From Tetraselmis striata (taxonomy: Eukaryota; Chlorophyta; Chlorodendrophyceae; Chlorodendrales; Chlorodendraceae), in contig VCJN01002508.1 in the NCBI GenBank assembly GCA_006384855.1, positions 124,001-188,000 of the forward strand: 64,000 nucleotides of DNA, in the 5' to 3' direction. Below are positions 12,918 to 47,470 of the stretch, in pieces. Position 1 is the first letter of the stretch. Every line of letters begins with the position of its first letter. Below the pieces are notes generated by a model that worked only from the letters and a program-made list of their open reading frames with translations, was not told the DNA's origin and made no database searches. A program made the translations under genes and the position numbers.

Positions 12918-12951
<34 letters not shown>

Positions 12952-13110
12952 CGCGCGGGATCCCCGCCATCAGCAGCTTGCACTTGCACTTTGCGCGTAC
13001 TGCTGGGTTACATCCAGGCGGCGTCACACCGGAAAGGCTGCGTTGCTACTGCAAACGATGCTACGCCTCACTCGGTAGCAACCGCTGCCCCGCCCATCCC
13101 ACTCGGGATG
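12740..13110. repeat. Local duplication with poly-C tract in CACTA-1
   Basis: The segment from CACTTTGCGCGTACTGCTGG to CGGTAGCAACCGCTGCCCCG occurs twice (about 12788-12902 and 12985-13093), separated by a C tract at about 12918-12950. CACTA-2 has it once, so the duplication or deletion came after the copies split. Confidence 0.7.
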
Positions 13111-16560: not shown

Positions 16561-16581
16561 CGTCACATCTGAATCTCACAG

Positions 16582-26960: not shown

Positions 26961-26969
26961 TACTATCAG

Positions 26970-27623
26970 CATCAATGTCCAAGGGAAAAGTGTTGCAATT
27001 GTCCAAATATTGTGTAGGGGGCAGCAGCTGCCACACACGTAGGTATAGTACCCGATCCACTTAGCGCGTGTCCCTCGTTGTGGTTGATGGCCCATCCATC
27101 TAGCCACCGGCATGCATCCGCCGGCAAACTCTGACAGGCGGCATCAAAGTACCGCAAGAGCTGTGCGATGCCCGGATGCACTAAGGTTGGCAGCTGGCAC
27201 AGTAATCTTGCGTTCGCATCGGCGCCACGCTGGCCCTTCCGCTGACGCTATAGTGTAGGAGGATTCCGCCGTCCGGTGCGGTTACGAGGTCGCCTATATG
27301 GCACTCAACTCCCGCGCCACCCCAGCATGAACACAAACAGAGCACAACCGTTGCCAGGCTGGCGCGGAACAACTCCACGCGCCACTGTACCGGGAATGAC
27401 CTTGGCCCATGTCTGGCTCAGCTCGGACTGTAAAGTTTTCTCCAGGGTAAGAGCATTGAGCACAACCATGTCTTGCGGGCAAGAGGACCCGGGTCAACTT
27501 CAGGAGCAGCGACACTTGCGACTCGGCCATACCCTTGCGAACCCTGTCAACAAGCTCGCCCGGCGCCATCGGCTCCCGGCCGTGGTCGTTGAAGAACGCG
27601 TGGACCGCTGAGAAGTAGGGTTG
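26970..27623 (-). pseudogene. DIRS-B tyrosine recombinase, main part (decayed)
   Basis: The minus strand reads VQPYFSAVHAFFNDHGREPM then PGELVDRVRKGMAESQ (about 27620-27500), matching the core-binding region of DIRS-type tyrosine recombinases. Several frame changes follow. Near the end are WLDGWAINHNEG and TIPTCVAAAAPYTIFGQLQH (about 27120-26990), which resemble the C-terminal GGW and FFGWL regions of these enzymes. Frameshifts and missing catalytic residues make it a relic. The N-terminal part of the same gene lies at 47317-47470, across the inserted large element. Confidence 0.6.
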
Positions 27624-27978
27624 AACAGTAATGCAACCTATTTTGCACCGAGGCACGCGGTGCATTGTGGTTAGGTCTGAATCAGGGTTTGGGGGCAGCA
27701 GCGGGATTGAAAGCTAATATGAATGACAGTTGGTTCATTTTGTGCTAAGTCGGGGAAACCAATTCCGTCCAAACAAGGACAAATCAAAAGAGTGAAGGAA
27801 ACGGGATGGTTACAAGAAGTTTGCGCCACCGGGGGCTGAAACTCTGTCCAAACTGGGACAAAAAAAGTGCGGGGGCCGTGATGTCTACAAGTAGTTTGTG
27901 CCGTCCGGGGCTGAAACTGTGTCAAAGCCGGGACAAAACATATGAGCGGCTAATTTTGCGGAATTGTACTACATATCA
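27624..27978. repeat. Left end of the large element with GGGACAAAA motifs
   Basis: The terminal inverted repeat is followed by GGGACAAAA at 27855-27863 and 27930-27938, plus a related GGACAAAT near 27778. The motif is the core of the 24-bp minisatellite units (GGGACGAAA on the same strand). The stretch holds no coding exon and lies between the end and the stop of the leftward gene. Confidence 0.6.
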
Positions 27979-30782
27979 TCATCTTCGATCACATAATCCC
28001 CTCGGCGCTCTGCCGCCTCTTGCCTCCTGACGCTCTGCGAACTCCTCTGCCACGGTCATTGGATGGGGTAGACCCGGCCACTTCTCGAAGTCATTTGGAC
28101 GCAATCTTTGAGTCCTGTCCCATGGCTTCTCTTTGAACCATGAGGTCATCCTGGACTTCATCCCATCGATTTGCGTCTTCTGGTTGTCAATGAGGATCGT
28201 CTTCAAGTTCCTGTGTGTGAACGAGTAGCTATGATCCATATGGTCCCACCACACGGAAAAGGCCGCAGCGACCTGGAAAAGGCGTGGCAAACCGCACAAG
28301 GCGTTAATTTTTTTATGTTGATCCCATTAAGACACTCACCCGGGTTGCACCCCTCACGCACCGCGGTTGTCCCGGTTCCGGCTGTGACGTCGACGATTGT
28401 TGTCCCGTCTGTTGCCGCCATCTTAAGGTGCTTGGCGAAGAGAGCGATAGGCTTTTGGTACTTGTTCACCGTCTGTCTGTTCTCGTCCTTCAATTTCGCA
28501 CTGTCTTTGAAGTGACCCAACATGATGGATGTAGAGAACCTGGAAAGGCACAACCGGCTTAGCGAGTAAATAAATACAAGCCGGCTATTTTCCACGGATC
28601 AAATCTCACCTTCGGGGATCATCGAAACGGATGTTGTCAGCTACGATGCTTGGCGGGGGCTTCCTGACGTAGAGGTAGTACTCAGCGTCGTGACGCAGAG
28701 AGCTGCCCATCTTCATCCCGCAATCCTTGGCCCAAGTCAGGACGTGATAGATGAGGTCCTCAGCTTGTTTTTGTACGGCTGTGATTGCAGATCCAAGTTG
28801 CTGGTCCGAGAGGTGAATGAAGAAATGGCACCCATCGAGAGCAGTGTGGACGTCAGAAGATCCAGTCAGGATATTCAACTGCCTGCGCGGGGTATAATCG
28901 GGAATGAGAGAAATGAAAGCACAGTCATCTACGCACCGGGGTTGTGGGGGTGTCTTGCCTGGCGAAAGCAAACACGTCGTTGAAGTCGTCCGTACCCCAC
29001 GCAGCATCCTTTGAGTCCCATGTGTGCGAACAAGCTCCGAAAAGCGCGTCGGCAATGAAGACTGTTGCCTTTCTGGCGCGAACTGCCGACATGGCGTCCG
29101 CGACGGCTTGTTTTGTCGCGGGAGCGTTGAAGTTCCCCTCCACAATGCAAGTCTTGCAAAGCTCCGTGTTCAACCAGACCTTGTCATCCTTGTCGACCTC
29201 ATGGCCCTTGGGCATCACCGGAAGTTTCTCGGCCTATGTATATTAGAAAATCGATTCGGGTTAATAGCTCACAATGAAAATTCAGAAGAGCATTTGTGGT
29301 TGCACAAGATCTTAGTTACCTTCATCGATATCCACAGCTCATTAAAAACATTCGGAGCGGAAACCGCGATAAGCTCCGGCGCACATGCCAGAAGAGCAAA
29401 CTCTGTGAAGAAGGAGATGACCAAGTCCGGCATATGATCCTTGATGCGATACGCCTCACTCATGATGGTGGTGTTGTTGGCTGCGATATGCTCTCGAACT
29501 GGTAGTGGTGTGAGACAATCGGCGGATTTCATGTCCCCCCATCTGGCAGGAGGGGTCAGCAAGACCATCAACGGACCGGAGCGATGAGCACCTTTGAACA
29601 AATCCTGGAACTTTCTGGGGAAGCCTGTTGGGCCGAGGTCATCAACCTTGGCCCGGAACTTGGTGATGGCGTCAAGGCGAGCGGCCGCTTGCTGGTCCGA
29701 CACTTTGTGTTGCACATCCCATTCGATGATGTGGTCCGAGAGATATTTCCCCCAATTCCTGGCCGGTTCGTCCGGCGTCAGCAGTTGGATTGCCTCCCTT
29801 CCCTTGGCCGTGTCAATGGCATTCATGAGCTTGATGCTTGCTCGACGCAAGAGATCGCGAAACCTCCAGGTCTCAATCATCGCGAGCCACTCCGCGTTGG
29901 TGTGCGTAACGGCCATGGGGCCATTGTCGCCGGCATGCTTTATGTCATCCACCGGCTCGTAGAGGCTCGGGGTCACACTGTGCTCGCCTTGGATGAGCAG
30001 TCCAACCACCAGGTACATCTGGCCCACATGGAGATCCGTGCTGTCGCTCTGCTTGGCAAGAGACGGCTCGTCTAGCAAGGGCGCATGGGGTCCAAAGCCA
30101 ACATCCTGGGTCGAAAACCAAACTTCAGTACGGAGAAAGGAATGATAGTATTCCATGTGATTAAGACATTGGGGTCGGTCGCAACTTACCTCCATGAGGG
30201 CGACTCGGAAGTGAGCTCTGTCTTTGCCGAAGCCGTACTTCTTGTTATCGAGGATTGCATTGATAGGCTTCCGAATTGCTTCGTAAACCTTCATCACTTC
30301 CTTCTGGGTGAGTTGCCTGCCGCAATTGAGACGCTTGACTCTATCCAGTTCTTGCTGGTAGTACACAAATAGGTCAATGAGTTTGGTTCTGGCTTCGTCC
30401 CATCCTCGAACCCCGAGGTCCACATGCCGGTTGGCTTCAGAAATCTGCTCAAGGGGCTCAAAAACACTGCGCAAATCAATTGTCAGAATCTAGCAGCATT
30501 AACACGATAAATTTTCATTATGTACGCAGCTTACCGTTGTGGGCGCGAGCAGAGGTCAATCAAATTTGAGAACTCGCTTCTCTTCTCATCTTTGATGCCG
30601 ATCTTCTCAAGTTCAACTTGAAGAACTTCAGACTTCTTGAACTCCTTCACGACTCTGATTTGCGGAAGGGCCCTAAAGCCGGGGCGAGTTGCACCCTGAT
30701 CTGCATACCAGCTCTCGAAACATCTGCGAAGGTTCTGCAGAAACACTTGCACCGATTTCAAAATTCAGAACGATTATACCTC

Positions 30783-31100
30783 GATGACAAACCGTTTCGT
30801 CCCGCTGATGACAGAACGTTTCGTCCCACTTATGACAGGCCGTTTCGTCCCACTGATGACAAACCGTTTTGTCCCGCTGATGACAGGCCGTTTCGTCCCA
30901 CTGATGACATACCGTTTCGTCCCACTGATGACAGACCGTTTCGGCCCACTGATGACATACCGTTTCGTCCCACTGATGACAGATTGTTTTGTCCCGTTGA
31001 TGACAGACCGTTTCGTCCCACTGATGACATACCGTTTCGTCCCACTGATGACATACCGTTTCGTCCCACTGATGACAAACCGTTTCGTCCCACTGACATA
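30783..31100. repeat. 24-bp minisatellite array A (about 13 units) in intron of gene 1
   Basis: Units start ACCGTTTCGTCCCACTGATG and close with ACAG, ACAT or ACAA. The array lies in the intron between exons ending 31346 and beginning 30735. As the unit is 8 codons, open frames appear on both strands (FVPLMTDR, VISGTKRS) and are not genes. Confidence 0.85.
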
Positions 31101-32949
31101 TATTTTTAACCCGCTGACGACAGAACGACTTTTGGCACACTTTACGCCTATTTGTGCGCTCATACTCTCCAGAGGACACTACGTACACCGGAAAGGACAC
31201 TGAGAAATTCTCGGCGGACAGGGAAGGATTCCTCTGAATAACAAATGCAAGAAATGGATGTCAGTAAGTTGCATTGTGTATTGATTTAGATTTGTCTACA
31301 CATATTTGATCCGGATAGGTACAACATGTCGCGATAGGCTTTTACCTTGTAGCTTTGCGCCACCATATTGCAGTCTTGCAGCTTTGGGGATCGGAATTCA
31401 AATGCCGGCGGCGGAGCGACGAACTTATCGGATGGGAAGCTGAAAATGTGAGGCAGCCCCATATCCTTGTCGACGACGAGGTTGACTCTGTCAGCGTATA
31501 ACGTGTTGATGTCGCCACCGTGAGATGTCTTCACCTCTGGATCAGCAATCTCGACTCTGAGGTGGCCGTAAGAGATCAAGTCGACGGCACCGGTGTTGTA
31601 GAAGCCATTCAAGGCCGGCGGGACGGCCAACGTGTCGACGTATGGAAGCGCGTTCTTAAAATCCTTGTCAATGTTGGCCAAGTCATCGATGTCAATCTCA
31701 CCAGACGCGAAACATGTCAGCGCATGCGACAGCACATTGCGTTCGACCAAAGTCCATGCGTAGTAAGACTGGAACCGCGGCTGGAAGCAGAGTGACGGTT
31801 CGATCGCGTGGAGTAGCAACCTCTCAAAGCTGACATCGATCCTGAACTCCTTGTGCACTGTCAAGCGATAAGGTTCAAGAGAGATCTGCGGTAAAAAGCA
31901 TAAGAATATTAATACTTATTAATACACGACATTGACACGAATTCAGAGACATTATAAGCTTTACTCACCCCGTAGTTTCCGGCCGAGTGCAGCTCGACGT
32001 CCTTGATCTTTCCGATACACGCGAGAAGTGGCCCCTTTGGATCATCGAAAAAGTCCTTGCCAGTCAGCAGGCTCGCCTTGTGCAATTCAATGTACAAATA
32101 GATCTGTACCTCAGCACTTGTGTTCTTGAGCCAGTGGATGGTCCAGCTCCTTGAGGTAAAGTCGATGTAGGAGTCATGTTCTTAGGATCCGTCCCTCTCG
32201 TCAAAGAAGTCGTCGTAAGAGGCGACCGTCATCAGCTTTGTCTTCCTCTCGGGTCCAGGAGTGCCGGTGATGTCGAGAGCTTGCTTACGCCTCTCTGCCG
32301 CCCGTTGCCTCTGTTCTTCCTCTGTGCCGAAGACCTCTTCATCCGTGCACATACTGGGGAATTCAGGAACCCTTCTTCTCGGTACCTCGGCAAGAGATGT
32401 TCGAGAACCAAAGGCTCCAGAACCGGACGCTTGCCCGGTAGTCTGCGCTGGAGTCTCGAGCTCGGGCTCTGGCTCCAATTCAGGCTCCGGTCAAGCCGAG
32501 TGGGCTCGGGCTCCGGCTCGGGCTCCATCTGAGTGGGCGCAGTTTCAGGCTCATGCTGAGGCTCTGGCTCGGGCTCATTGGGCTCTGTTTCAGGCTCCGG
32601 CTCGGGCTCCGGCTCCGGCTCAGTGTGCTCTATTTCAGGCTCAGGCTCAGGCTCTGTTTCCGGTACTTGAGGCGGGCCTTTAGACAAAGAAGAGCCTTGA
32701 TTCGGGGAACCTGTAAAGAATGAGTAGAGAGTACTCAACACACCTGCAGTGGGCGTCACGATTAACTACTGAACGGTATCGCCATACACATCAAAGCCAA
32801 TCGTGAATTTCTTACCTGAGGATCCCGATCTACCAGCTGCTTCCGACGCGGTTGCCTGCGCCAATTGACCTGTTGGAACGTCAGATAACTCACTGACGAG
32901 AAATTAATCGAAGGGAGTGAGAAGGCAGGGATTGATACTTTTAGTCACC

Positions 32950-33302
32950 ATTACATGGAGTCACAATCGTCTCTGAAACCTTTTCTTTTCCCTTGGATTC
33001 CTTTGAAGCTTGAGTCGCTACTGGCTCATGTGCGCGTCCTTTCGAACCTGTCAACACACATGATTTCAAACAATGTCAATATGACACAGTGAACTCACAA
33101 AAATCATATGATTGGAGAGGCAATTACCTGGAGTCACAATCGTCTCTGAAACCTTTTCTTTTCCCTTGGATTCCTTTGAAGCTTGAGTCGCTACTGGCTC
33201 ATGTGCGCGTCCTTTCGAACCTGTCAACACACATGATTTCAAAAAATATCAATATATATGACACAGTGCACTCACAAAAATCATAGGATTGGAGAGGCGA
33301 GG
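32950..33302 (-). repeat. Tandem duplication of one exon plus intron in gene 1
   Basis: A block of about 176 bp occurs twice (about 32955-33123 and 33131-33302), differing by a few bases. Each contains an exon coding for SKGRAHEPVATQASKESKGK plus a following KVSETIV segment, and the adjacent intron. The downstream copy has lost the AG before its donor (CCATGTAAT instead of CCAGGTAAT). Confidence 0.7.
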
Positions 33303-33689
33303 ACCTGATTGATAGTAAGCTTGCATGAGCTTTTCATAATCGATTAGCCTTCGCGCTGTCTGCATTTGAGCATCTGAGAGGATTTGGCCGCTCTTGATTC
33401 GGTCCCTCAAAAGACCGGCGGCCGATCTTTCTCCTTGCGAGTGCGTGCCGTAAGCCGGCACTCTACCTCCTAAAAGGCTCGGTTTCCAGGGGTTACCTGA
33501 TGCCTCGGCGCCGGCTCTAGCTGCAGAAACTGAGGCTGCACGGCTCTTCTTAGCCGCCGGATGCTCGGGCACAGAAGATGACGCCTTGTGTTTCCTCCCG
33601 ACTAGCGCTCCGAGCGTATCGAATTCTTTTGCTTTCTCGGTAGGTTTTGATGTCCGCTTGGACCTCCGACTTATAAATATCATATTCTG

Positions 33690-34054
33690 TCATACCGTTT
33701 CGTCCCACTGATGACATACCGTTTCGTCCCACTGATGACAGACCGTTTCGTCCCACTGATGACAGACCGTTCCGTCCCGCTGATGACAAACCGTTTCGTC
33801 CCACTTATGACAGACCGTTTCGTCCCACTAATGACATACCGTTTCGTCCCACTGTTGACAGACCGTTTCGTCCCGTTGATGACAGACCGTTTCGTCCCAC
33901 TGATGACACACCGTTTCGTCCCACTTGATGACATACCGTTTCGTCCCACTGATGACAGACCGTTTCGTCCGACTGTTGACAGACCGTTTAGTCCCACTGA
34001 TGACATACCGTTTCGTCCCACTGATGACAAACCGTTTCGTCCCACTGATGACAA
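33690..34054. repeat. 24-bp minisatellite array B (about 15 units)
   Basis: Same unit as array A. It is continuous with array C (41981-42200) once CACTA-2 and one copy of its CAA duplication are removed, and the 24-bp register is then restored exactly. It lies upstream of the first large exon of gene 1, probably inside its first intron. Confidence 0.85.
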
Positions 34055-34732
34055 CACTGTGAGATTCAGATGTGACATACGGGTGACGAAGCACTACTAC
34101 TAGCGACTATTATTTATCCGTGAAGGCTGCTGCTGGTGGCGGCACGTCCATCCAGTTACGTGCGAGTACATCCGGCGTTATTGCCGGCGGGCGATAAATC
34201 CTTTTTGTAATTATTCTGCTAGTCGTACTAGCCCGGTGACGTGTTACATGGCACTAACGTATAAGGTACAAGGTTGTCCGTGTAGTACCGGGTAGTACGC
34301 GATATATTTATTAAGCCGGTACCGGGTATCTAGTACGAACCCGGGCGCGATGACGAATCGTCATGTGGATAACTACGACTTGTAGTACATGGGAGCGCGA
34401 ATCTCAGCCGTACTATTCGGCTAGGGGCATGCCCGCCGTCCGATGAAAGATCATCAGATGGGTGGTTTGGCTGCCATGTTTTGCCAAAGAGTGATCACGT
34501 TACATAAATATTCGCGAGGGGGAGGGCGGGGGCAGGCAGCGGTTTACCGAAGAATGTTTGAATTACAATATTCGCGACAGCTGCCGTCGGGGCATGTGGC
34601 GGGGGGCGGGGCGGGGGGGGGGGGGGGGGGGGGGGCGGGCGTGGTCCCCCCGCCGCCCCCCCCCCCCCCCCCCCCCCCGCCGCCCGCCGCTCCCGCCGGG
34701 GGAGTGAGGGGAGGGGGGTAAGGGGGCGGGGG

Positions 34733-35314
34733 CTACTGCTTGTTCTTGTTCTTGCGTGCCCGGGGGACCCTCCGCTTCGACGATCTCGTTGCCTCCGCCT
34801 CCGCCTCCGCCTCCGTTTGCTCCTCCGACTCCGCCTCCGACTCCGCGACCGTCAGTTTCTTACCTCGGCGCTTCTTCAATGGCCTCTTCCGCTTCTTGTC
34901 ATCCGTCAGTGTCTTCACCACCCCGGGAGGCTGTGCCGTCGACGACGCCGCCATGAGCTTCCTTACCTTGGCGTCGGGACGCCCCCTGTGCCCAGACGCC
35001 CACAACAAGCCACAATCGTTTTGCCTTTAAGCGGCTGAGGATGCGGCCTCCTCGGCCACCACGAGCTGCGCCGCTGGCACTGTGGAAGCCTTGGCGTTGA
35101 GGTGGGCCTTACGGCGCTCCCGGACGAACCTGCGCGCGGCACAAGTTAGCCACGAGTGGGTGCGTGCTAATGTGGAGGGTGGAGTGTTTTGTTGCGCGCC
35201 CACCTTGTCACGCGTTTCCTCATGTCTTTCTCGTCCTCCTCGATGCCGGCGGCGCGGACACGCGAGACAACGAGGCTCGCCGCCCACTTTTGCCCGGGGG
35301 GCGAGGTCTGCCAT
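34733..35314 (-). CDS. CACTA-2 basic/acidic protein, 2 exons (partial)
   Basis: Counterpart of 8928-9514. It starts MADLAPRAKVGGEPRCL near 35314. The last exon (about 35130-34733) has KKRKRPLKKRRGKK, a shorter Glu/Ala run, and ends RVPRARKNKNKQ. Conservation of both ends in the two copies supports a real gene. Its role is unknown. Confidence 0.42.
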
Positions 35315-35759
35315 GGCGCTGTGAGCGGTGAAGGGGGGGGGGGGGGGGGCGGCCGAGGTGGAGAAACTAACAGTCAGCCAGTCGACGACCGCCTTCCGCA
35401 GCAGTCAACGACACATCGGAGGCGAGGAGCAGCGCGCCACTACTATTTATATGCACGTATTGTCAAGAGCTAGTCGGTGCGGCATTGTGTCGGTGTAATT
35501 TCGCAATGTTTATTGTTGAAGTAGCACGGCGTAATGAATACGCGGTTTCACCGAGTGAATCCGGGATAATATGTGCGGTAGGGCGCGCGTATATGTGCGC
35601 GACGAATGTGCGCAGCGTTGTGCGGCGGTGTGCACCGATGTGAATATAGTGTGAATATTATATCGGCCGTAGACGATCGGGTCTGGCAGCACCGCCCGTG
35701 CTTGTAAATAAGCGACAATGGATCACGTCATGCTCCGGTTGTACTCCTACACTTCCTCC

Positions 35760-35895
35760 ACTTTGGCGGGTGGGGGGGGGGGGGGGGGGGGGGCGGGGGG
35801 GGGGGGGGGGGGGGTCCTGTCCTTATTATTTACTTGCATCGGTGGACGTGCTGGATAATAAGGACAGGACCCCCCCCCCCCCCCCCCCCCCCCCT
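35760..35895. repeat. Foldback with G-tract and C-tract arms in CACTA-2
   Basis: GGTCCTGTCCTTATTAT is perfectly inverted as ATAATAAGGACAGGACC about 35 bp later. The left arm is extended by about 45 G and the right by about 25 C. It is missing from CACTA-1, so it arose or inserted after the copies separated. It may be a tiny foldback element or a hairpin formed by template switching. Confidence 0.7.
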
Positions 35896-36149
35896 CGGGC
35901 ACATCGCGTGGTTTCGGAGCAGTTCATTCGCGCCTCCTCGTCTTGTTTGCAATCGTCGCCCTAATCCAATGAAGGGTGAGTAGCGGGACACTGTGCCCCC
36001 CCCCCCCCCCCCCGGTTTATATAAACAAATAAATATTTAGCCGTGCATGCGCCGCAATCGGTACCCAATGAGCGGGGTATGTGACAGTGGTTTCGAAGCA
36101 GTGCAAGCATTCCGTGCGTGTGCACAAGCACGTACGACTGGGAAAGAGG

Positions 36150-37880
36150 CGGGGGTTGCGGATGGAGTGCATTGGCGGTGCATAGAATAGCGTGTTCCTG
36201 GGGTTTTGGCTGCATCAGACGCCGTATTCCCATCCATCCGGCACAGAATGTCCGGTTTTCACTCATTTGTGTGTTAACATAGTGTGAATATTACGCGTCT
36301 TTTACGCCGGGTGGATGGGCATCCGGCGTCCGATGCACCCCAAGTATTTACAGCACGCTACTCTACGCACCGCCAATACACTCCGCAAGCCCCGTCTCCA
36401 TCCGCGTGGGAACCGGTAGTAAGTGTTGTTGTGTGCGCACATCGTGACAACATTACACGGTGGCAATTGCAATCAGCGGTGGATAATGTGAAGGCGTTTT
36501 CGAAATCGACAGAGAATGAGGCGGTGCTGGCGGAGTGCATTGGCGGTGCATAGAATAGCGTGTTGCTGGGGTTTTGGCTGCATCGGACGCCGTATTCCCA
36601 CCCATCCGGCACGGAATGTCCGGTTTTCACACATTTGTGTGTTAATATAGTGTGAATATTACGCGTCTTTTACGCCGGGTGGATGGGCATCCGGCGTCCG
36701 ATGCACCCCAAGTATTTACAGCACGCTACTCTACGCACCGCCAATACACTCCGCAAGCCCCGTCTCCATCCGCGTGGGAACCGGTAGTAAGTGTTGTTGT
36801 GTGCGCACATCGTGACAACATTACACGGTGGCAATTGCAATCAGCGGTGGATAATGTGAAGGCGTTTTCGAAATCGACAGAGAATGAGGCGGTGCTGGCG
36901 GAGTGCGTTGGCGGTGCATAGAATAGCGTGTTGCTGGGGTTTTGGCTGCATCGGACGCCGTATTCCCATCCATCCGGCACGGAATGTCCGGTTTTCACAC
37001 ATTTGTGTGTTAATATAGTGTGAATATTACGCGTCTTTTACGCCGGGTGGATGGGCATCCGGCGTCCGATGCACCCCAATTATTTGCAGCACGCTAGTCT
37101 GTGCACCGCCAGTGCACTCCGCAAGCCCCGCCTCCATCCGCGTGGGAACCGGTAGTAAGTGTTGTTGTGTGCGCACATCGTGACAACATTACACGGTGGC
37201 AATTTCAATTAGCGGTGGATTATGTGAAGGCGTTTTCGAAATCGACAGAGAATGAGGCGGGGCTGGCGGAGTGCATTGGCGGTGCATAGAATAGCGTGTT
37301 GCTGGGGTTTTGGCTGCATCGGACGCCGTATTCCCACCCATCCGGCACGGAATGTCCGGTTTTCACACATTTGCGTGTTAATATAGTGTGAATATTACGC
37401 GTCTTTTACGCCGAGTGGATGGGCATCCGGCGTCCGATGCACCCCAATTATTTGCAGCACGCTACTCTACGCACCCCCAATACACTCCGCAAGCCCCGCC
37501 TCCATCCGCGTGGGAACCGGTAGTAAGTGTTGTTGTGTGCGCACATCGTGACAACATTACACGGTGGCAATTGCAATTAGCGGTGGATTATGTGAAGGCG
37601 TTTTCGAAATCGACAGAGAATGAGGCGGTGCTGGCGGAGTGCATTGGCGGTGCATAGAATAGCGTGTTGCTGGGGTTTTGGCTGAATCGGACGCCGTATT
37701 CCCACCCATCCGGCACGGAATGTCCGGTTTTCACACATTTGCGTGTGAATATATACAGTGTGAATATTACATACGCGTCTTTTACGCTTGGTGGATGGGC
37801 ATCCGGCGTCCGATGCACCCCGAATCTCACCAACACGCTACTCTACGCACCCCCAACGCACTCCGCCAGCCCCGCCTCTT
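36150..37880. repeat. 368-bp tandem repeats in CACTA-2 (4-5 units)
   Basis: Units with CACTCCGCAAGCCCCG occur at about 36389, 36757, 37125 and 37487, with diverged units at each end. Adjacent units are nearly identical to each other, more than to CACTA-1 units, which suggests homogenisation within the array. Confidence 0.8.
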
Positions 37881-38365
37881 TCCGCGCAGGTCCTACGTTC
37901 CATTGTATGTATATACATACGTACATGTACTGCTCCGAAACCAGCCCAAACTTAATGAGTGCACAAGTGTAAATGGGGGGGGGGGGGGGGGGGGGATGTG
38001 GCGGCGGGGCATCCACTCACACATACCCCGGCGATGCATGACAGATATTACATGCCGTGGCGGGTCGGCGGGCCGACCCGGCGGGGGGTGGGGGGGGGGG
38101 GGGGGGGGGGGTCTATTCAACTACACGTGCGACAGTGTCGTTTCGGGGAGCAGTATATGTGCCCGGCCTCATTTATACCGCCCCCTACCTGCGCTGCATG
38201 GTCCACCCCTACGAATTACTTAGCACAAACCGTCATTACTTAATAGGAACCTAGCACAGCCATGCCTATATGCCCGCTTTGCCGATCAACTTCTACGCAC
38301 TTCCCGTCCCTCAGCCGCCGGACATGGGGGTTAAGCCGCCAGCCTCGGCAGTTGCTTAGCCAGAC

Positions 38366-39439
38366 TTGGCATCCCGTACCGTGTCCATGGCTTCTGCCGC
38401 CGGGGTTGCGCACGCATGCACGCACGGTAATACGCCGCCGACGCCGCCACGCTTACTTCCACCACCTTCGCCAGCCGCTGCTTCGCACGCCGTTCCGCCG
38501 ACATACGAAACGCACGAATCCCCCCCCCCCCCCCCCCCCCCCGTCCCCGCGTCATGTATAATATATTCGAGGCGACTATGCGGGGCGCAGCACACGCCGC
38601 GGCGTGGGTCGGCGGAGCGGCAGGCGGCGGGAGCCCTAATGGCCGGGCAGTATCCACACCCACACAGGCACCGCCGCTCACCTCCGACGCGGATGAACTG
38701 CCTCCCAAAGGAAACATGCCGGTTGGTGGTAAGCCCAGCAGGCGTGGGGTGCCGGCGCCGGTACCGGTGCGACGGAGCTGTCGCGTCAGGAACTGCACCG
38801 CATGTGGAGCAACACATGGCGGTGCCGGCCCCACCTATGTCTAGGGCCACCTCCTCACAACACCCCGCCACGACGGCGTCGGCCACCGCCGACGGCGCCG
38901 TTGCGGGGGGAGACGCCCTGCCAGGCGACGATGATGAGCCTGGTGCGCCGCGTCAGGAGGCGGAGGAGGCCGTGGTCGAGGCGACTGATCGGGCTGAGGG
39001 GGTTGTCGAGGCGAGCGAGGCTGCGCTCGCGCCACCCGCCCCGCAGCCACCTGCGCGACATGCCGACTTGCTCGTCGCCATGTTGACCGGAGCACTAGGA
39101 GCAGTGGCGGGAGGCGGCCACATGCACTATCATGTGCGTGTCCTGGCCGGACGCCCGTCATGCGTGGACTGCGGCCAACGGACGGACTGGGAGTGTTGCT
39201 GCGACGGCACTCCGGCTTTGTGCGGCCCCAAGTACCCATGCATGGCGACCCATCAGCGGGCAGTCCCCTGCCCGGCCATAGTGAGGGCGGAGTTCCGCCA
39301 TGTCAGGGACGCGTTCCACGACGCGACTCGCGCCGCCGTGTGTGAGGCTTCCGAGAAGGCACGCGCGGCTGGTAGGGTGCGCAAGGTGAGGCGGCGGACG
39401 GCCCAGGAGATGAAGGAGAGCGAGACATGCCGTCAGTGA
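38366..39439 (+). CDS. CACTA-2 Cys-rich ORF (plus strand)
   Basis: Here the frame is open for 357 codons, longer than in CACTA-1, because a poly-C tract (38521-38542) has a length that keeps it open. Only the second half is convincing: an Ala/Glu-rich stretch, then CVDCGQRTDWECCCD and LCGPKYPCMATH, then a basic Arg-rich end (AGRVRKVRRRTAQEM). The cluster could bind zinc, as in the cysteine-rich tail of piggyBac-type transposases. It lies between the tandem repeats and the minisatellite. Confidence 0.45.
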   Translation: MASRTVSMASAAGVAHACTHGNTPPTPPRLLPPPSPAAASHAVPPTYETHESPPPPPPPVPASCIIYSRRLCGAQHTPRRGSAERQAAGALMAGQYPHPHRHRRSPPTRMNCLPKETCRLVVSPAGVGCRRRYRCDGAVASGTAPHVEQHMAVPAPPMSRATSSQHPATTASATADGAVAGGDALPGDDDEPGAPRQEAEEAVVEATDRAEGVVEASEAALAPPAPQPPARHADLLVAMLTGALGAVAGGGHMHYHVRVLAGRPSCVDCGQRTDWECCCDGTPALCGPKYPCMATHQRAVPCPAIVRAEFRHVRDAFHDATRAAVCEASEKARAAGRVRKVRRRTAQEMKESETCRQ

Positions 39440-39611
39440 GGTTGGGCGCAATGTCATTGGGTGGGGCACACGGACGTGTAACACTTGCACTTTGCGCGTA
39501 CTGCTGGGTTACATCAAGGCGGTGTCACACTATGCAACCGGAAAGGCTGCGTTGCTACTGCAAACGATGCTACGCCTCACTCGGTAGCAACCGCTGCCCC
39601 GCCCATCCCAC

Positions 39612-39935
39612 TCGCGTTGGCGCCGCGCTGCCCCGGCCGCCGCGCCTTGGCGCCGCGCTGCCCCGGCCGCCGCGCCTTGGCGCCGCGCTGCCCCGGCCGC
39701 CGCGCCTTGGCGCCGCGCTGCCCCGGCCGCCGCGCCTTGGCGCCGCGCTGCCCCGGCCGCCGTGCCTTGGCGCCGCGCTGCCCCGGCCGCCGTGCCTTGG
39801 CGCCGCGCTGCCCCGGCCGCCGCGCCTTGGCGCCGCGCTGCCCCGGCCGCCGCGCCTTGGCGCCGCGCTGCCGCGGCCGCCGCGCTGCCGCGGCCGCCGC
39901 GCTGCCCCGGCCGCCGCGCCTTGGCGCCGCGCTGG
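39612..39935. repeat. 30-bp GC-rich minisatellite, about 10 units (CACTA-2)
   Basis: Same unit and place as 13700-14490, with a scrambled portion at about 39865-39910 where shorter units occur. Confidence 0.88.
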
Positions 39936-41306
39936 GTATCGAGTCCTCCCCTCCCTGGTGAACGCGTCCACCTGCGCCTTGCGCTCGGGGCCGTCCTCCT
40001 CCGTCACCACATTCTGCAACCCCCACCGCGTGACGAACCACGCAAGTCCTTGCAGGCGCCTGTACATGTGCCCAAGCACCGCCAGTCGCGACACCGAACG
40101 CACCACCGCTGGGGACGCGAGCTCCTTCTCGGTCATGATCGCCTTCACCCGGGCCTCCTCTAACAGCGGACCGGCGTTAAGAATGGAAAACGTTTCCATG
40201 TGGTGCAAGCAGTCCTTTATGACCCAGCCGGACTGCACCGTCACCTTGCCTGACCCTGCAGTCAAGGAGGGGAATGCCGTCATGCCCACGCCCACGCCCA
40301 CGCCCGGAAGGGGGGGGGGGGGGGGGTTTACCTTTCGACTTCTTGGACACCGCATACGAAGGGCGCAACCCGCGTCCAAAGTTGCGGGACTAAAGCCTGG
40401 CGCCGGTCTTCCTGCTTCATAGCTCGGAATCCAATGTGGCCCTGCACGGTGACAGATTTCCTCCGAAAGTCCCTTTCCCAAGCCAAAAAAAAACAGGTGG
40501 AACGGCGCGGGGGGGAAGAGGTTGACCATGCTGACATAGCCCAGGACCACATGCACATGGCACACGCCATGGCATCCAGTGTTCTGCTTGGCCTCCGCCA
40601 GCCGGGTTGTGTTGAACGCACGCCGGGCAAGGTGCGTGATTCACTGGACAAGTCATCGCCTTCATGGACGGTTACCAAGCGAGCATCCCCGTCCGCATCC
40701 ACAGGGGGGTGCTCATGGGCAGCCGCCATAGCCTCCACAACCTGCCACGCCGACCGGGCGGGTGCGTGTGATTCCATACAACCGCAGTTGAGTGGTTCCA
40801 CCAGCACGCAGGCCGGGCCCACTCACCTCTGAACGCAGAAGGTCCACAATGTCACCGCCCTCGAAAACAGCGCGCCACTGGGTCGCCCCGCCGTAATCCT
40901 CCAACACCCACTCGGTAACGACGCCGGTTATCACGCCGTAGTGCCATACTCCCCGGAACTTCTTGGCGATGACCTTCATGTACAAGTCACCGGGATCGCC
41001 TTTCCGTATCACGCTCTCATCGGCAGCTTCCACGTCCGCCGGCGGCCACGCAGGCGCGTCGATGTCCATACCGTCTTCGCCAACGGGGTCCTCCCCCACA
41101 CCCATTACATCGTCCTCCGAGACCGGCGCCGGCGGGCCGTTTCCGACGGCTGCAGCTACTCCTGCTGCCGCCCCTGCCGCCGCTGTTGCTGCTGCTGCCG
41201 CCCTGCTGCTGCTGCTTGTAATAAGGCGGCCTTGCAGTGCACGCTTCAACGAGTGGCTACAGTTCGGGTATTTCCGGAAGTGCCGCTCTCGCGCCGTTCC
41301 TTTCAC
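39936..41306 (-). CDS. CACTA-2 putative transposase gene (BED-like, Tudor-like)
   Basis: Counterpart of 14491-15974. The first exon retains the end of the BED-like motif (ERHFRKYPNCSHSLK) but the upstream start codon is altered, and an 18-bp segment is missing near 41115. The Tudor-like stretch FYMKVIAKKFRG reads LYMKVIAKKFRG here. Later exons (about 40640-40340 and 40300-39940) keep MVNLFPPAPFHLFFFGLGKG and WFVTRWGLQNVVTEEDG. A one-base change after FGLGKG shifts the frame relative to CACTA-1, so this copy may be inactive. Confidence 0.45.
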
Positions 41307-41980
41307 TACTGCCCGTCACGATGCCGTGGCAGTGCTTGCATGTGTACACGCCATTCTTCGACACACTCGATATCCATCCCTCTCCCGGCATGCCTGTTGC
41401 CGCGCGCGCGCGGGGGGGGGGGGGGGGGGGGGTTGAGAGTTGGGGTGGATGTAGCCCACCACCGGCAGGGAGCACAAATGCGAGTGCGCGGCTGTCCGCG
41501 CTTGGTTCAGCGGTGAGCGGCGGTGACCGTGAGGCGACCCCGTACTTCATGCGCGTGCTGGGGCGTTACACAATCATCAGCAGTTAGGGCGGCTGCATTA
41601 AAACGCGCACCTACGAACACCACCTACCGCCTACCACCTACCGTACCACCTACATCCGCACACACCTCCGCCCGTCGTGCAGCACATCGCCGCACACCGC
41701 GGGGTCAGCGATGTGCAGCGATGTGCAGCGAGTACGTGCAGCCGCCTGTACTTAGCCCGGGTACTCGGCGTCGGCGGGCGACACGCGAGCCCGCATGCGC
41801 ATATCAATTTGATGAAATTATCGAAACGAGAAATTCATATAGTACTTTAAAGGTCGCGCGCGATAGTCGTCGCTACTCGGTATGAAATCCACGTCCCTCG
41901 TCCGTCCCGTATCGTCCCCGTATGTCGTCGTTCGTCACCAGTAGGGCACACTTGCGTCACATCTGAATCTCACAGTGCAA

Positions 41981-42200
41981 ACCGTTTCGTCCCACTGTTG
42001 ACAGACCGTTTCGTCCCACTTATGACAAACCGTTTCGTCCCACTGATGGCAGACCGTTTCGTCCCACTGATGACAAACCGTTTCGTCCCGCTGATGACAA
42101 ACCGTTTCGTGCCGCTGATGACAAACCGTTTCGTCCCACTGATGACAAACCGTTTCGTCCCACTGATGACAAACCGTTTCGTCCCGCTGATGACAGAACT
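41981..42200. repeat. 24-bp minisatellite array C (about 9 units)
   Basis: Right half of the array split by CACTA-2. Unit as in array A. Confidence 0.85.
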
Positions 42201-42572
42201 ATTTCCAATATATTATGTACTGCGGTTTAATAATGTTATGTATTTAAGTACTGCGCTTCACACTAATATTAAACCACTCCTTACGGCGGAGTACAGGCAC
42301 AGGGTCCACCTCGTAGCTCTCCACCCCCATCCCCCTCCCACAAATAATTAGCATCCTTACTGAACTTGCCGCAGCTGCCTCGACGGGACGTAATACTACC
42401 GAGCATGACCCTGATGCCGCTCGTCTCGTTTGGGTTTCTATTCCCACTCGTCTGCCTACACCTCGAGCGGTCCTAGATTACACCGCTTCTACAGGGAACC
42501 CTAACCGAACTCGCTAGATCTGGCCGCATCACGCGTCGAGCAGGCAGGCAGCTACTGTACGCGCGCGCAACT

Positions 42573-42634
42573 AACCTGGGGTGGCGTCGTCCTTGTCTTC
42601 CTTGTCCTTGGCAGGCTCGTTCTTCTTCAGCGCC
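42573..42634 (-). CDS. Possible first exon of large-element gene 1
   Basis: MALKKNEPAKDKEDKDDATP is followed by a GTTAGT donor. It is lysine-rich like the next exon (33683-33305), which would make arrays B and C part of one intron. A second possible coding stretch lies at 42447-42244. Only a transcript could confirm either. Confidence 0.3.
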
Positions 42635-43030
42635 ATTCTGGCGGTAGGTAGGTTGACGCGGTAGATGAGCGGGTTTCTTGGTGGGAAGCGGTGAGGGGGA
42701 GGTGGAAATGACGTGGATTCTGTCTGCCGCCGCTCTGACCCCTGCTGGACCAACGGCGCGCGTGCGCGCACTATAGTGCACCTCGTCGTCGTCATCAGGT
42801 TCATATATTTTGCTCCGCGACGAATATACAGGGCTAACTACTGCGACTATATATTACTATTACTGGAAGATAAAATATTCCCTACTCGAGAGTCATAACG
42901 GTACGAGAGTACAGTGACGTGGCAATAATATTCCTTCATGGGATGATATATTCCTTGGATTGGATTCGGGTGTACTTACTAGTATAGAATTATTACCGAC
43001 ATACGAAAGAAACACGAAATAATTCGGTAT
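42635..43030. promoter_or_regulatory. Shared upstream region of the two divergent large-element genes
   Basis: About 400 bp between the proposed starts of the leftward and rightward genes. The part at 42800-43000 is AT-rich (TATATATTACTATTACTGG). It probably holds divergent promoters, but I cannot mark a specific element. Confidence 0.35.
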
Positions 43031-43992
43031 TTGAGTCATCAATTATTTTGTCGGTCAACGTTTCTCGGTCAACGGCCTGTCCGAGAACGGTCATCGGCCG
43101 TCAGTCTTCCTCACCACATATCACAGTCCTTCACCCCCCCCCCCCCCCAACTCGCCCCTCGCTGCAGCATGGCGGCGGTCGAAAGCATGGCCTCTTCTCC
43201 AGGATCCGGCGCGTCGGACACTACAGTTACATTACCGCCGTGTTCGTGCCGCAGCGGGTACTCGAGTGATTGCGACGCGCGTGCGAGTGATCGTAAGGAG
43301 CCTGAGAAAAGGAAGTACACGTGGGGCAAGGGCTCCAATGAGGTCGCCGAAAGCGGTACTGGCAAGGTCTCGTCTCAGATCAGCAAGCGCACCTCTCGCG
43401 ATTGTATCCGCCTCATGCTCGCCAAGGAGGCTAGCGAGCAGTCGCCGTGCTGTTCGCGGAAGTGCGTGCACAAGCTATACACACAGTGCGGAGAGGCCCT
43501 CGTTGATGCCGTGATGGACCGTGCGTTGACCGTATACTCTGGCAATTAGAACCGCTCCTTTGACCGGGTCGCTCAGCTTCTCTGGGGTGGCTACGAGTCG
43601 GCATCCGACAAGTTCGATTACATGTTCGATCACGGTGGCTACTTGCGATCTTTCGATCATCGAGGTCCCATCTACACGTGTGGGCGTGCGTGGGAGGTCT
43701 TGCATCAGGTCTCGAAACACAAACGTCTCGTGATCCAGCGGTCGGTGGTGGATAACGAACCCACGTACATCAGGCAGCGCAAGCAATACGAGAGAAGACA
43801 AACCGGACCGAGAGAGCATGTGCGCATGTTTCTCGAGCACTTCTTCTCAGATGACCTCGGTCACGTCGAGATCATGCCTTTTCACGACGGCAACAGCGAG
43901 ACCTTCAAGAAGCACCTACCTCCCTGGATGACCAAGATTTGCGTATACTACTACTACAAGTCGTGGGCCGAGGACGACAACGCCATTCTCCG

Positions 43993-44741
43993 TGGTGAGG
44001 CCCATTTTGTCCCAATGATGACAGACGGTTTTGTCCCGCTGATGACATACCGTTTTGTCCCACTAATGACAAACCGTGTCGTCCCACTGACGACATACCG
44101 TTTCGTCCCGCTGATGACAAACCGTTTCGTCCCACTAATGACAGACCGTTCCGTCCCACTGATGACAAACCGTTTCGTCCCACTGATGACAAACCGTTTC
44201 GCACCGCTGATGACATACCGTTTCGTCCCACTGATGACAAAGCATTTTGTCCCGGTCATTACAGACCGTTTTGTCCCGCTGATGACAAACCGTTTCGTCC
44301 CACTGATGACATACCGTTTTGTCCCGCTGATGACAGACCGTTTTGTCCCGCTGATGACAGACCGTTTTGTCCCGCTGATGACAAACCGTTTTGTCCCGCT
44401 TTCGCCAGAACGTTTAGTCCCACTGATGCCGGACCGATTTCGTCCCAGAACGTTGCGCACCGCTTGTGGCATACCGTTTCGTCCCACCGACCACAAAACC
44501 ATTTGTCCCACATAATTAGCCGATATCGTCCCACTGCGGAGATAACGTTTTGTCGCACTGGTGAGACGATTTTGTCCCACTACTGACATACCGTTTCGTC
44601 ACACTGACGACAGATTGTTTCGCCCTGCTGATTACATAATTATTCACCCACTATCGATATAATTATTTCGACCCACTTTAGACCGAACTTTTCTGTCTCG
44701 CATTATGAGACCGTATTTGTATACCGACCTATCATGCCCAT
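43993..44741. repeat. 24-bp minisatellite array D (about 26 units) in first intron of gene 2
   Basis: The intron opens GTGAGG and closes CTTTGTAG. Almost all of it is the 24-bp repeat, with TTTTGTCCC as well as TTTCGTCCC variants. Units degenerate progressively after about 44400. Confidence 0.85.
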
Positions 44742-46353
44742 GCCCCTTTGTAGATTTGGCTACCGAGAGCGAAGTGAAGCTCGCATCGTTCGACACTTTC
44801 CGCCGGACTTGGAAGGAAGACTTCCCGGATGTCGCCACGCTTAAGGTGAAGCGATTCAGCCACCGTCCCATATGCGCGGCGGGCAAAGCACTCAGAGGCC
44901 AAGCTCGCGAGATTTGCACAAAGGACATGACGCCAGAGGAACGTCAAATGCACCATCAACATCAGCAACTCGTGAGGCGTCAGGTCAGAGCTAAGCAGAA
45001 GGTACACCTCGAGAGAGTGCGCCAGGAACGAAGGGATCTGAACAACGCCGTCTTCCAGTCGCGCCTTGGCCATGGAAACTTCTTCTTCTTCGAAATTGAT
45101 AGCATGGACTCCGCGAAGACCATGCTGCCTCATTGGGTTCGCATCCCCAAGACTGTGAATCCCGACATGCTCCTCAAGTACCACCTCACCTGTGTGAAGT
45201 ACGACGGATACCGCCCGGACGACATCTACTACTACACCAACACCATCCCCCACGATTCGTCCACGACGTGCACTCTAATATGGATCACGATCATGAAGGT
45301 GAGCTCGTTAGCCTCCGGATAGGCTCGCCGTAATTGTCCGGTAGCCATGGACTGATGAAATCTTATCTGCGATGCAGGAAATTCAACACCGTGGTAGAAA
45401 GATTCCGTACATCAGAATCCAGATGGACAACACCGTCAGGGAGATCAAGAATAGGAACGTGGCGGCCCTCTGCAATTGGCTTGTGTCTATCGGCATCTGC
45501 GACGTCATTCATTTGGTTTTCTTGCATGTCGGGCACACTCACGAACGGGTTGACCAGATCTTCAGCCGCATCGGTCTTGCGCTATCTCGCAGCTCCACCT
45601 ACACAATCGAGGCCTTTCTTGACTTGGTGGCGAAAGCATTCTCGCCCACTCCGGAGATTGCTGGGCTCTCATTCTCCCTCGACTTCTTTGAGTGGTTAAG
45701 GCCCCATTTCCAAGACCACATTCAAGACATCGGTAAGCCGCACAAATTCGAGTTCACCCCTGACGACGCCGCCGCGTCTGGCGGCTCGTTGCGCACCGCC
45801 TTATGGTCTAACACACCGCTTTCTGAGCCCGTGCAGATCTTGAAGAGCGCGCCAACAGGGACGCCCGAGATTCGTGCGGGCCGGCCCCTTTTGTTCGCTC
45901 TCTGCGACAGAAAGAAGTCCGACGCGGTGAAGGTCCAGAGGTACTTGGATGATTTCAAGAAGGTCAGGTCGTACATCACGGACCTGGCGGTCCAGTGGCA
46001 CTTCTCCCCAGTCGAGCGCGAGAGCTGGAAGAATCTGCTGGACGACTTGGATGAGATGCAAACTGCTCCTTCGGCAGCTTTCGCCGGGTTTTGGCCGCAA
46101 CGGAAAGAGGAAGTTGACGACTTCTTGCGCGAGCACGGGCAGACCGCGCCTGCTCAGGCACGTCACACGATGGCTACCAACGCAGACCTCAACAATGCCG
46201 GAGCCGCTCGCGTTGAAGCCGAGGTTCGTGCTCAAGTGCTTCAAGATGACAGCGCCTTCCGGGGAGTTCACGCCGGCGCCAAGGAGAGGCTTCATGACAA
46301 CACATCGCCCAGCGATGCAAAGGGCTCGAACCTCGTTGTCATCGACGTCTCCG

Positions 46354-46487
46354 ATGTGAGTCCCATTGTTTGTCATTGTTGTCCTTTACGGGACAAAACA
46401 ATTTGGTTCATCTACCTTGCTTGTTATTTTGTCCCAATTGGGACAAAAATGGCGTGGCGTCTCGCTCGGGACTAACATAGCTCGCGG
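46354..46487 (+). repeat. Intron with TTTTGTCCC palindrome
   Basis: GGGACAAAA at 46390-46398 is followed by a 22-bp perfect palindrome at 46427-46448 made of TTTTGTCCC, AATT and GGGACAAAA. A looser copy lies at 47098-47119. These repeat the core of the 24-bp minisatellite near the right end of the element. Confidence 0.6.
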
Positions 46488-47316
46488 TCTTGGCCATCAT
46501 TCGGTGCATGAGGAAGACAAGTGTCCTAGAACTCTTGGTGATTGGGAGTCGAGATTTGTCATCGGGCTTGTGAAGTCGCGCGAGACTACCGAAGACACGT
46601 TGACCGTGGCCGTATACGAGCCCTTCCATGCCGATGCAAAGGGCAAACCCCTCATGCCCCTATGGTTGTACGCGCATACAAAAGGAGGGAAGAAGCCAGT
46701 TGACACAAGCTGGGAGAAGTGCCTGACGCTTCCTTGGAAGCTTGTTGAAGCCGTCCCCCTATTGTACGCGAAGGCCATCCACGACGCGTCGGGAAGTCGA
46801 GAGGTGTTCAACGAGGACGGCACCATGGTCAGAAAGAAGTGGTACGGTAGAAGCGTCCAAGTCGTGAAGACATATGCGAAAACTGGGTTGCAAATCAGCC
46901 AGCCACGAAACAACTTTGTCCACGTCATGTCAATCACCCCCGCGCAACGCAAACCCGGCGGAGTCGTCAAGTTTAACGCAGCCACGAAGAAGGACTTGCT
47001 TGAGTTGGGGATGCTCAACGAATGAACTATCAGCAACGTCTTGCGGCTAGCCAATGGATGTAATCATCATAATAAATATTGATTTCATGGCCTCATCTTG
47101 TCCCATTTTGGACAAAATGCTCCAAAACCAACATTGGATATGCGTCGCGGCTGGCCAGCACGCTGATGAATGCTGCACTGCACCCAAGGTCTACAAACCC
47201 AAGCTACATCACCAGTGAGTCTTAAGTACTGATAGTAGACCCGGGAACTAGGGTATAAACAAACCCTACGGTGCAAAATGAATTCCACGGTGCAAAATAG
47301 GTTAAATTACGGTTGT

Positions 47317-47470
47317 TGTAAGCTAATTGCCTTGATCGACTCCAGATTGCCCAGCCAGGTGATGTACCGGGCCATGACACCGGGGTCAGCGGCCGGCGCG
47401 GGTCGTTGTTCCTCCTCGCAGAAGCGAAAGTAATGCTTAATACAGCTAGCGTATGGCGCGGCAATGGTGG
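47317..47470 (-). pseudogene. DIRS-B tyrosine recombinase, N-terminal part
   Basis: The minus strand reads CIKHYFRFCEEEQRPAPAAD, PGVMARYITWLGNLESI and KAISLQQP, the SAM-like N-terminal domain of a tyrosine recombinase. It breaks off exactly at the end of the large element, and the same gene resumes at 27623 with VQPYFSAVHAFF. Confidence 0.6.

Follow-up and report, generated by a model that had tools for sequence, protein, structure and literature searches.

A 64,000-nucleotide stretch of the genome of the green alga Tetraselmis striata (contig VCJN01002508.1 of assembly GCA_006384855.1, positions 124,001 to 188,000; below, the window) contains at positions 27624-47314 what is most likely a degenerate copy of a family of cut-and-paste type DNA transposons, about 12 kb in length and here called F1, with an accessory methyltransferase fold aboard (we put the probability of this reading at about 0.8). 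Judged from sequence, two parts of it are strongly supported, namely that the segment is a mobile element and that a DUF7869 gene is paired in it with a methyltransferase-like gene. An earlier interpretation made without database searches, the sequence-only reading, had proposed such an element, and the copies, ends, target-site duplications and second family described below bear it out. The two divergent multi-exon genes that it had seen were recovered by Pfam, as PF25273 (DUF7869) on the plus strand and PF01555 (N6_N4_Mtase) on the minus strand. The genes and the main exons of the second one, including its S-adenosylmethionine (SAM) binding motif, are as follows.

43169..47025, plus strand: DUF7869 gene, candidate transposase (exons 43169-43993, 44753-45298, 45378-46355 and ~46483-47025)
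27982..32181, minus strand: methyltransferase-like gene, assembled part, with splice sites set by hand
28937..29233, minus strand: exon with the motif-IV position, FIADALFGACSHTWD, reading DALF where CcrM and RsrI read DPPY
28341..28539, minus strand: exon with KPIALFAKH and the SAM-binding motif I, VDVTAGTGTT

Ends and target-site duplications

The genome searched comprised 224,097,584 bases in 2,903 contigs, in which the window is C2021:124001-188000. The 16-bp inverted match noticed earlier at the ends of the window element is real, and when compared with 30 further ends taken from elsewhere in the genome it proves to extend over 27 bp, AACAGTAAT(GC/TT)AACCTATTTTGCACCG. The 30 ends are of two main types, some with mismatches, and their agreement reaches AACAGTAAT, beyond which the sequences are unique. 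As the terminal repeat is 27 bp long and shared across these ends, the boundaries of F1 are set at 27624-47314 (19,691 bp); the left end proposed before is retained, and the right one is shifted from 47310 to 47314. The end type on the methyltransferase side is AACAGTAATGCAACCTATTTTGCACCG, and that on the DUF7869 side is AACAGTAATTTAACCTATTTTGCACCG, with another CATTTTGCACCG behind it. Between the two ends of the window element, 3 of 27 positions differ. With at most one mismatch, the 16-mer end has 648 matches in the genome (331 + 317), compared with three (2 + 1) for the reversed control. The terminal features of the window copy are listed here.

27620..27623: left copy of the target-site duplication GTTG, identical to the GTTG at the right flank
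27624..27650, plus strand: left terminal inverted repeat, methyltransferase side, AACAGTAATGCAACCTATTTTGCACCG, the same end type as in other copies
47269..47280, minus strand: second CATTTTGCACCG copy, directly inside the right end
47288..47314, minus strand: right terminal inverted repeat, DUF7869 side, AACCGTAATTTAACCTATTTTGCACCG, with one mismatch to the common AACAGTAATTT form
47315..47318: right copy of the target-site duplication GTTG

Eight further F1 copies were delimited as pairs of plus and minus ends 4-28 kb apart, taken from 100 listed places of the 648 and selected by their ends alone. An exact 4-bp duplication flanks the element at seven of eight independent sites (GTTG in the window, and GGTA, CCTG, AGCT, TCAA, TAAC and ACGC elsewhere), where chance would give about 1 in 256 per site. 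Copies C483 and C613 have the same flanks, that is, one TCAA site, and in both an interruption (of ~8.7 and ~10.2 kb, respectively) falls at about the same point of the DUF7869 gene; they are allelic or duplicated contigs.

The target site

When the element and one GTTG are removed in silico, an open frame runs continuously across the junction. The sequence-only reading had taken the flanks for a host gene divided by the insertion. The element does interrupt an open frame, which is restored without it, but this frame belongs to a repeat, for which the left flank as query found 395 candidates. With a 600-base query of the joined flanks, 204 candidates were obtained and 40 of them scored; two were the window's own halves, and the other 38 target copies all span the junction unbroken, at 71-78% identity. 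Insertion into a single host gene was rejected on these two results.

The target repeat itself occupies 26900-27623 and 47315-49347. The open frame of its joined flanks has no Pfam match, though it presumably resembles the N-terminal part of a tyrosine recombinase, and an open reading frame near the target shows weak reverse transcriptase similarity (PF00078, E 1.4e-4, under its cut-off). The repeat is perhaps a DIRS-like retroelement.

Linkage of the two genes in F1 copies and in the genome

Both genes are present in all nine delimited F1 copies (the window copy and the eight others), divergently oriented and placed alike with respect to the two end types. In the 4.4-kb copy C493 both are partial; in outline both are also there in C24 and C30, copies of 12.0 and 12.5 kb. 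Several copies with both genes, the same ends and short duplications, which the sequence-only reading had suggested looking for, thus exist.

The association extends through the genome. PF25273 has 548 candidates there, the best 150 of which all score above its cut-off, many of them in an open frame of 376 aa, and the methyltransferase exon with motif IV has 342 candidates, of which the best 150 were scored. At least 82 of the best 150 DUF7869 exons have a divergent methyltransferase exon (among the best 150) no more than 30 kb away, with four wrongly oriented, and 79 of the 82 pairs lie 6-15 kb apart (median 9.2 kb); shuffling of contig labels yields 8.6 on average and 17 at most. Since both lists hold the best 150, the count of 82 is a lower bound. 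Gene models agree with this: among 48 methyltransferase models, 16 carry a number no more than two away from that of one of 51 DUF7869 models, the random value being 0.27, on the assumption that numbers follow contig order. This comparison used 48 of the 49 methyltransferase hits, excluded the fusion model P0094 and the models of the second family, and counted P0044 with DUF7869.

That the interval is an unrelated host locus, in which two neighbouring host genes happen to lie between inverted repeats, is next to impossible given the hundreds of ends and exon copies, the duplications and the empty sites, and this reading was rejected on these grounds.

All relatives retrieved with the methyltransferase-like query (49 of 49) and with the DUF7869 query (50 of 50) are Tetraselmis striata models (EukProt, jgi/Tetstr1, TSEL_). 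Three protein searches yielded no close relative outside this species, the exception being four distant DUF7869 proteins from other sources (P0114-P0117, with E 0.03 for the last); the first two of these searches scored about 8,000 candidates, those with the most words in common, and do not establish that relatives are absent elsewhere. A scan of viral contigs with patterns from P0060 and P0008 found no relative.

A second family with the same gene pair

The third protein search revealed a second DUF7869 family in Tetraselmis striata, F2, with 13 models 37-38% identical to F1, and the PF01555 search of the genome revealed a second multicopy methyltransferase group. Between the families, the DUF7869 proteins are 38% identical and the methyltransferase domains 30% identical over 198 aa (E 3e-21). 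Fifteen of 36 methyltransferase hits of this group have one of 68 F2 DUF7869 exons as a divergent neighbour at up to 30 kb, one has such a neighbour in another orientation and 20 have none; shuffles give a mean of 1.5 and a maximum of five. The 68 exons come from the 150 scored rows (best 150 of 599; E <= 2.8e-42), and the 36 hits were chosen by eye from 104 PF01555 rows, setting aside the five strongest and 63 that resemble F1 exons or fragments. The five strongest PF01555 matches in the genome (61-117 bits) are at C1010:99804-100724, C1597:15473 and 22582, C803:199293 and C2009:26599. Among the best 150 of the 599 F2 exons, 21 share the top score at 100% identity, a sign of recent spread.

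Nearly all scored matches to the F2 end on the methyltransferase side break off at query positions 1158-1173, AACATTGATTCAAAATAAATGTTA, and nearly all those to the DUF7869 side at 109-118, AACATTCGTTCATT(A/T)AA. Ten pairs of opposite F2 ends on one contig were fetched, paired by their ends with no check of gene content pair by pair, and five of them have exact 4-bp duplications (TATT, CTTG, CATC, TAAC and AGTG). The flanks of C541 have GCACTCCAC in common with a one-base shift, and this pair was excluded from the duplication count. At C401:136097-137219, 75 bp from an F2 copy, lies a further, inverted end of a DUF7869-type element, which shares 76% identity with the F2 end.

Both families thus have the hallmarks of a terminal inverted repeat DNA transposon, with inverted repeats at both ends in many copies and a short direct target duplication of fixed length (4 bp). 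Since the gene pair, its orientation, the AACA... ends and the 4-bp duplication are common to F1 and F2, the association is older than their split.

The DUF7869 protein as candidate transposase

DUF7869 proteins are multicopy in many eukaryotes, as the sequence-only reading remarked. The plus-strand gene matches PF25273 at E=1e-38, and this transposase candidate has no other strong match in Pfam; a PDB sequence search with P0060 and P0008 gave nothing useful, and in the literature searched we found no paper naming DUF7869 proteins. In an alignment of 21 proteins, the invariant or nearly invariant positions are, in P0060 numbering, D388, D468-N469, N474-K475-N476, H504-T505-H506 and D510-Q511, and D385 is present in the rows read that cover it.

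The structure model (mean pLDDT 35, from 21 alignment rows, nearly all of one species) is poor; its core runs strand-strand-helix-strand-helix-strand-helix, D385 closing the first strand and D468 closing a later one. Foldseek returned no match at E<=0.001 with this model, the top one being Mos1 (E 0.057), followed by many Argonautes and also unrelated chains. Mos1 and the Argonautes are both RNase-H-like, and the pattern of matches is suggestive, and only suggestive, of such a fold. Taken with the modelled core order, the conserved aspartates fit a DDD transposase, short of proof, and the DUF7869 protein is probably the transposase of the element.

Selection was estimated in seven of the nine F1 copies (C613 and C493 being left out) and in 11 of their 21 pairs. 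The ratio of nonsynonymous to synonymous substitution rates (dN/dS) of DUF7869 is 0.19-0.31 for C30 against the six other copies; for five closer pairs the range is 0.31-0.44.

The window copy is a degenerate relic, while many F1 copies retain an open DUF7869 core exon. Its DUF7869 frame has an in-frame TAG at 43547-43549, where the five other readable copies comprise four with an open frame and one that likewise carries a stop. Two residues that most other copies conserve are altered in it (ENK to EIK and LPVGHTH to LHVGHTH), and the consensus splice sites leave its last exon junction out of frame. A second stop, TAA at 32182, falls in the methyltransferase frame, where the Tetraselmis striata models covering the position read Q. 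Most of the other copies or models read are open at both stops. An alternative genetic code was rejected for the two stops, decay being simpler; this was judged with no systematic comparison of codes.

The methyltransferase-like protein

The coding sequence of the second gene extends upstream past the in-frame TAA (32182-32184), the frame being open to 32490, and probably has further exons up to ~33.69 kb. Exon assembly of this METHYLTRANSFERASE-like protein gives the order found in beta-class enzymes, that is, the motif-IV position, KPIAL and then VDVTAGTGTT with its glycine-rich SAM loop. The window copy matches PF01555 at E=3.8e-5 and 24.2 bits, under the cut-off of 26.7, which is passed by F2 (38.1 bits), by some F1 copies and by models P0001, P0004 and P0008. 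NCBIfam gave weak CcrM matches only. With an F2 copy, in which the gene lies in one exon, phmmer found CcrM (whole-sequence E 8.9e-5) and RsrI (9e-4). On motif order and profile matches, the second gene is a homologue of CcrM/RsrI-type, or beta-class, methyltransferases.

The position of motif IV is fixed by a weak secondary stretch of this alignment, in which F2 LLIADSNYGL stands opposite LIFADPPYNL and where F1 reads FIADALFG. The catalytic pattern [DNS]PP[YFW] is found in none of the copies read from either family. Seven of the nine F1 copies have DALFG, C436 has DTLFG and C493 DALLC, and the one F2 copy read has DSNY. Of the 49 protein hits, 40 cover the region by pattern, DALFG being the reading in 36 of them; [DNS]PP[YFW] is absent from all 49, and a single DPPA (P0003), found with a looser pattern allowing A, sits in another exon. 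The earlier proposal of a DNA-modification-like protein carried by the element therefore holds as regards homology to methyltransferases, and is weak as regards an active enzyme, no copy read at motif IV having DPPY.

None of the 98 proteins checked contains the segment HFFIHLSDQ. That it is coding is supported by the corresponding F2 segment, FIWFLTDQ, which is part of an open exon, and by a dN/dS of 0.22-0.39 for HFFIHLSDQ, measured over only 32 codons. For the methyltransferase domain, dN/dS against C30 is 0.29-0.49 in the six copies. The fold seems from these rates to be kept by moderate purifying selection, looser than that on the transposase.

The 24-bp arrays

The 24-bp repeat that had been reported in introns of both genes was confirmed, and was found between the genes as well. 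Its units, about GACAGACCGTTTCGTCCCACTGAT, form four arrays, listed here with a subterminal site that carries the same core.

30794..31091: 24-bp array in an intron of the methyltransferase-like gene
33697..34043: 24-bp array on the 5' side of the methyltransferase-like gene, adjoining the nested element described below
41984..42185: intergenic 24-bp array, on the right of the nested element
44028..44485: 24-bp array in intron 1 of the DUF7869 gene
27854..27863, minus strand: subterminal TTTTGTCCC motif ~240 bp from the left end, found in 7/7 copies scanned

The core of the unit, TTTYGTCCC, occurs 54 times in the window element and is absent both from the 35.9 kb of the window outside elements and from the nested element; TTTYGTCCCA occurs 38 times in the window, with 0.19 expected. 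In the motif scan, which covered seven of the nine F1 copies (C613 and C264 being left out), sites stand ~240 bp from the left end in all seven, at ~315-332 bp in five and 841-891 bp from the right end in six. The arrangement makes TTTYGTCCC a candidate binding site for either protein.

A nested CACTA-like element

The interval that the sequence-only reading took for one element is F1 throughout, save for 7.9 kb that belong to an unrelated element nested within it.

34055..41977: nested CACTA-like element of 7,923 bp with terminal inverted repeat CACTGTGAGATTCAGATGTGAC and the 3-bp duplication CAA, foreign to F1

It is inserted within the 24-bp array between the two F1 genes, and because of it the window copy is longer than the ~12-kb copies. 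Its CACTG ends and 3-bp duplication differ from the AACA starts and 4-bp duplications of F1 and F2. A sibling with the same 22-bp ends and the 3-bp duplication ACG lies at 8200-16583, the longest aligned pieces of the two being 89-95% identical; two open reading frames tested per copy had no Pfam match at E<=0.01. Inside the nested element, at 36152-37886, a ~368-bp unit is repeated five times in tandem, with mutually inverted parts of 91-93 bp. Long poly-G and poly-C runs occur in the window at 34579-38115, 41391-41439 and 48389-48431.

Relation to known systems

We found no description of a pair of DUF7869 and a CcrM-like gene in the literature searched, in line with the sequence-only reading, which had named the element its main candidate for an undescribed system.

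Among superfamilies, Sola comes closest in duplication length and DDD type, judged by description, not by sequence; it has a DDD transposase, 4-bp target duplications, variable inverted ends and some elements above 15 kb (PMC10741241); for Sola2, 4-bp duplications and an 888-aa transposase are described (PMC3627910). F1 and F2 have the 4-bp duplication, and in P0060 the candidate residues D385/388, D468 and D510. They differ in their targets, which are mostly not of the AT-rich AWWT kind reported for Sola2 in amoebae (PMC3627910), and in their CcrM-like gene, of which the available Sola descriptions (PMC10741241, PMC3627910) make no mention. Two other assignments were rejected for F1 and F2, KDZ (Kyakuja/Dileera/Zisupton) on the 4-bp duplication compared with 8 bp in Zisupton, and CACTA/EnSpm on the AACA ends and 4-bp duplications compared with CACTR ends and 2-3 bp.

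DNA-modification genes are carried by several other kinds of transposable elements. For instance, fungal DNA transposons with TET/JBP (KDZ, Plavaka, IS3EU, hAT7, PHISTA and others) encode their own DNA-modification enzyme beside the transposase, much as F1 carries a methyltransferase-like gene, whereas their transposase groups are others, the duplications named for them are of 2, 3, 6, 7 or 8 bp and the enzyme is a dioxygenase (PMC12730594). Retrotransposons of Symbiodinium and charophytes, too, have captured a DNA methyltransferase (DNMT), but these are C5-cytosine enzymes shown to methylate (PMC5890265), while F1 is a DNA transposon with a relative of beta-class amino-methyltransferases. Mariner-2_PGv and Mariner-1_OLpv likewise combine a cut-and-paste transposase with a methyltransferase in one element; they differ in having a Mariner transposase, a restriction-like endonuclease, integration in viruses and methyltransferases of other classes (PMC3627910). 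Finally, the bacterial beta-class N6-adenine methyltransferases CcrM (6pbd) and RsrI (1eg2) share with the F1 and F2 proteins the order motif IV, KP, motif I, and F2 aligns with them over KP and motif I and weakly at motif IV; they are distinguished by DPPY in place of DALF (F1) and DSNY (F2), by the long extra N-terminal part of F1, and by the eukaryotic transposon context of both families.

Proposed mechanism and alternatives

We suggest that DUF7869 is a DDE/D transposase with D385 or D388, D468 and D510 in the RNase-H-like order, which would cut at the AACA... ends and join them to 4-bp staggered targets. The CcrM/RsrI-type fold would travel with it as an accessory factor, probably binding S-adenosylmethionine and the element's own DNA, with the TTTYGTCCC sites in the 24-bp arrays and towards both ends as candidate sites. 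It may aid expression or transposition against host silencing.

Several observations weigh against this model. The accessory role of the methyltransferase-like protein is one that we infer from sequence. Both prolines of motif IV are lost in F1 and in F2, although an acidic and an aromatic residue are retained. Neither structure model is good enough to prove its fold: that of DUF7869 (pLDDT 35), with its non-significant Mos1 match, is too poor for DDE, and that of the methyltransferase-like protein (mean pLDDT 30, from 18 alignment rows, nearly all of one species, and modelled without part of one exon) is too poor for a methyltransferase. Over the whole gene, dN/dS of the methyltransferase is 0.37-0.69 against C30 and 0.40-1.25 in the five closer pairs, compared with 0.31-0.44 for DUF7869 in the latter. 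The F1 site C436 has no 4-bp duplication, nor have four of the ten F2 pairs (C1697, C541, C2351 and C401), while in C761 the second end was unrecognised. TTTYGTCCC is absent from two F2 end pieces.

The looser selection, with one copy pair at dN/dS 1.25, and the stops in exons of some copies would be expected if the methyltransferase-like gene were a passenger, cargo with no role for the element. We consider this quite improbable, since the gene keeps the same divergent position in F1 and F2, occurs in 9/9 delimited F1 copies and has a domain dN/dS below 0.5 against C30.

How an accessory protein of this kind would act depends on its activity. To our knowledge, the second proline of DPPY is nearly universal in beta-class enzymes, and, given the loss of the prolines in both families, normal methylation by the F1 and F2 proteins is doubtful. 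With DPPY changed to D-x-x-(F/Y), binding without efficient methylation appears somewhat likelier to us than active N6-adenine or N4-cytosine methylation. Less likely, though a fair possibility, is that the protein is a working N6-adenine or N4-cytosine methyltransferase with a variant motif IV, marking the element, perhaps at its 24-bp arrays or its ends; such a mark would lead the host to leave the element transcribed, or allow the transposase to tell new DNA from old. The loss of the second proline in both families speaks against active marking; the SAM-binding motif I, the KP motif and the aspartate and aromatic residue of motif IV, all kept in both families despite 30% identity, speak for it, as do the purifying selection on the domain against C30 and the association of N6-methyladenine with permissive chromatin in many eukaryotes, as given in the available part of PMC12695648, which does not touch on Tetraselmis.

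More speculative, and in our view unlikely, is a dependence of longer standing, in which DUF7869 would define a eukaryotic transposase lineage and its elements in this alga would have relied, since before the split of F1 and F2, on a methyltransferase-derived partner with an altered catalytic motif, reading or writing a base modification on its own arrays and ends. If true, this would amount to a built-in epigenetic switch for the expression or transposition of the element.

The ends and duplications of F1 and F2 give DUF7869 proteins a mechanism that is open to test. With them, homologues of amino-methyltransferases join the DNA-modification proteins carried by transposons, in a pair kept through deep divergence, and the altered DPPY raises the question of whether a methyltransferase fold can serve without catalysis. 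The pairing may help the element to escape or to mark the control exerted by its host, and, as the DNA of this alga can be read for base modification, self-marking by a transposon is directly testable here.

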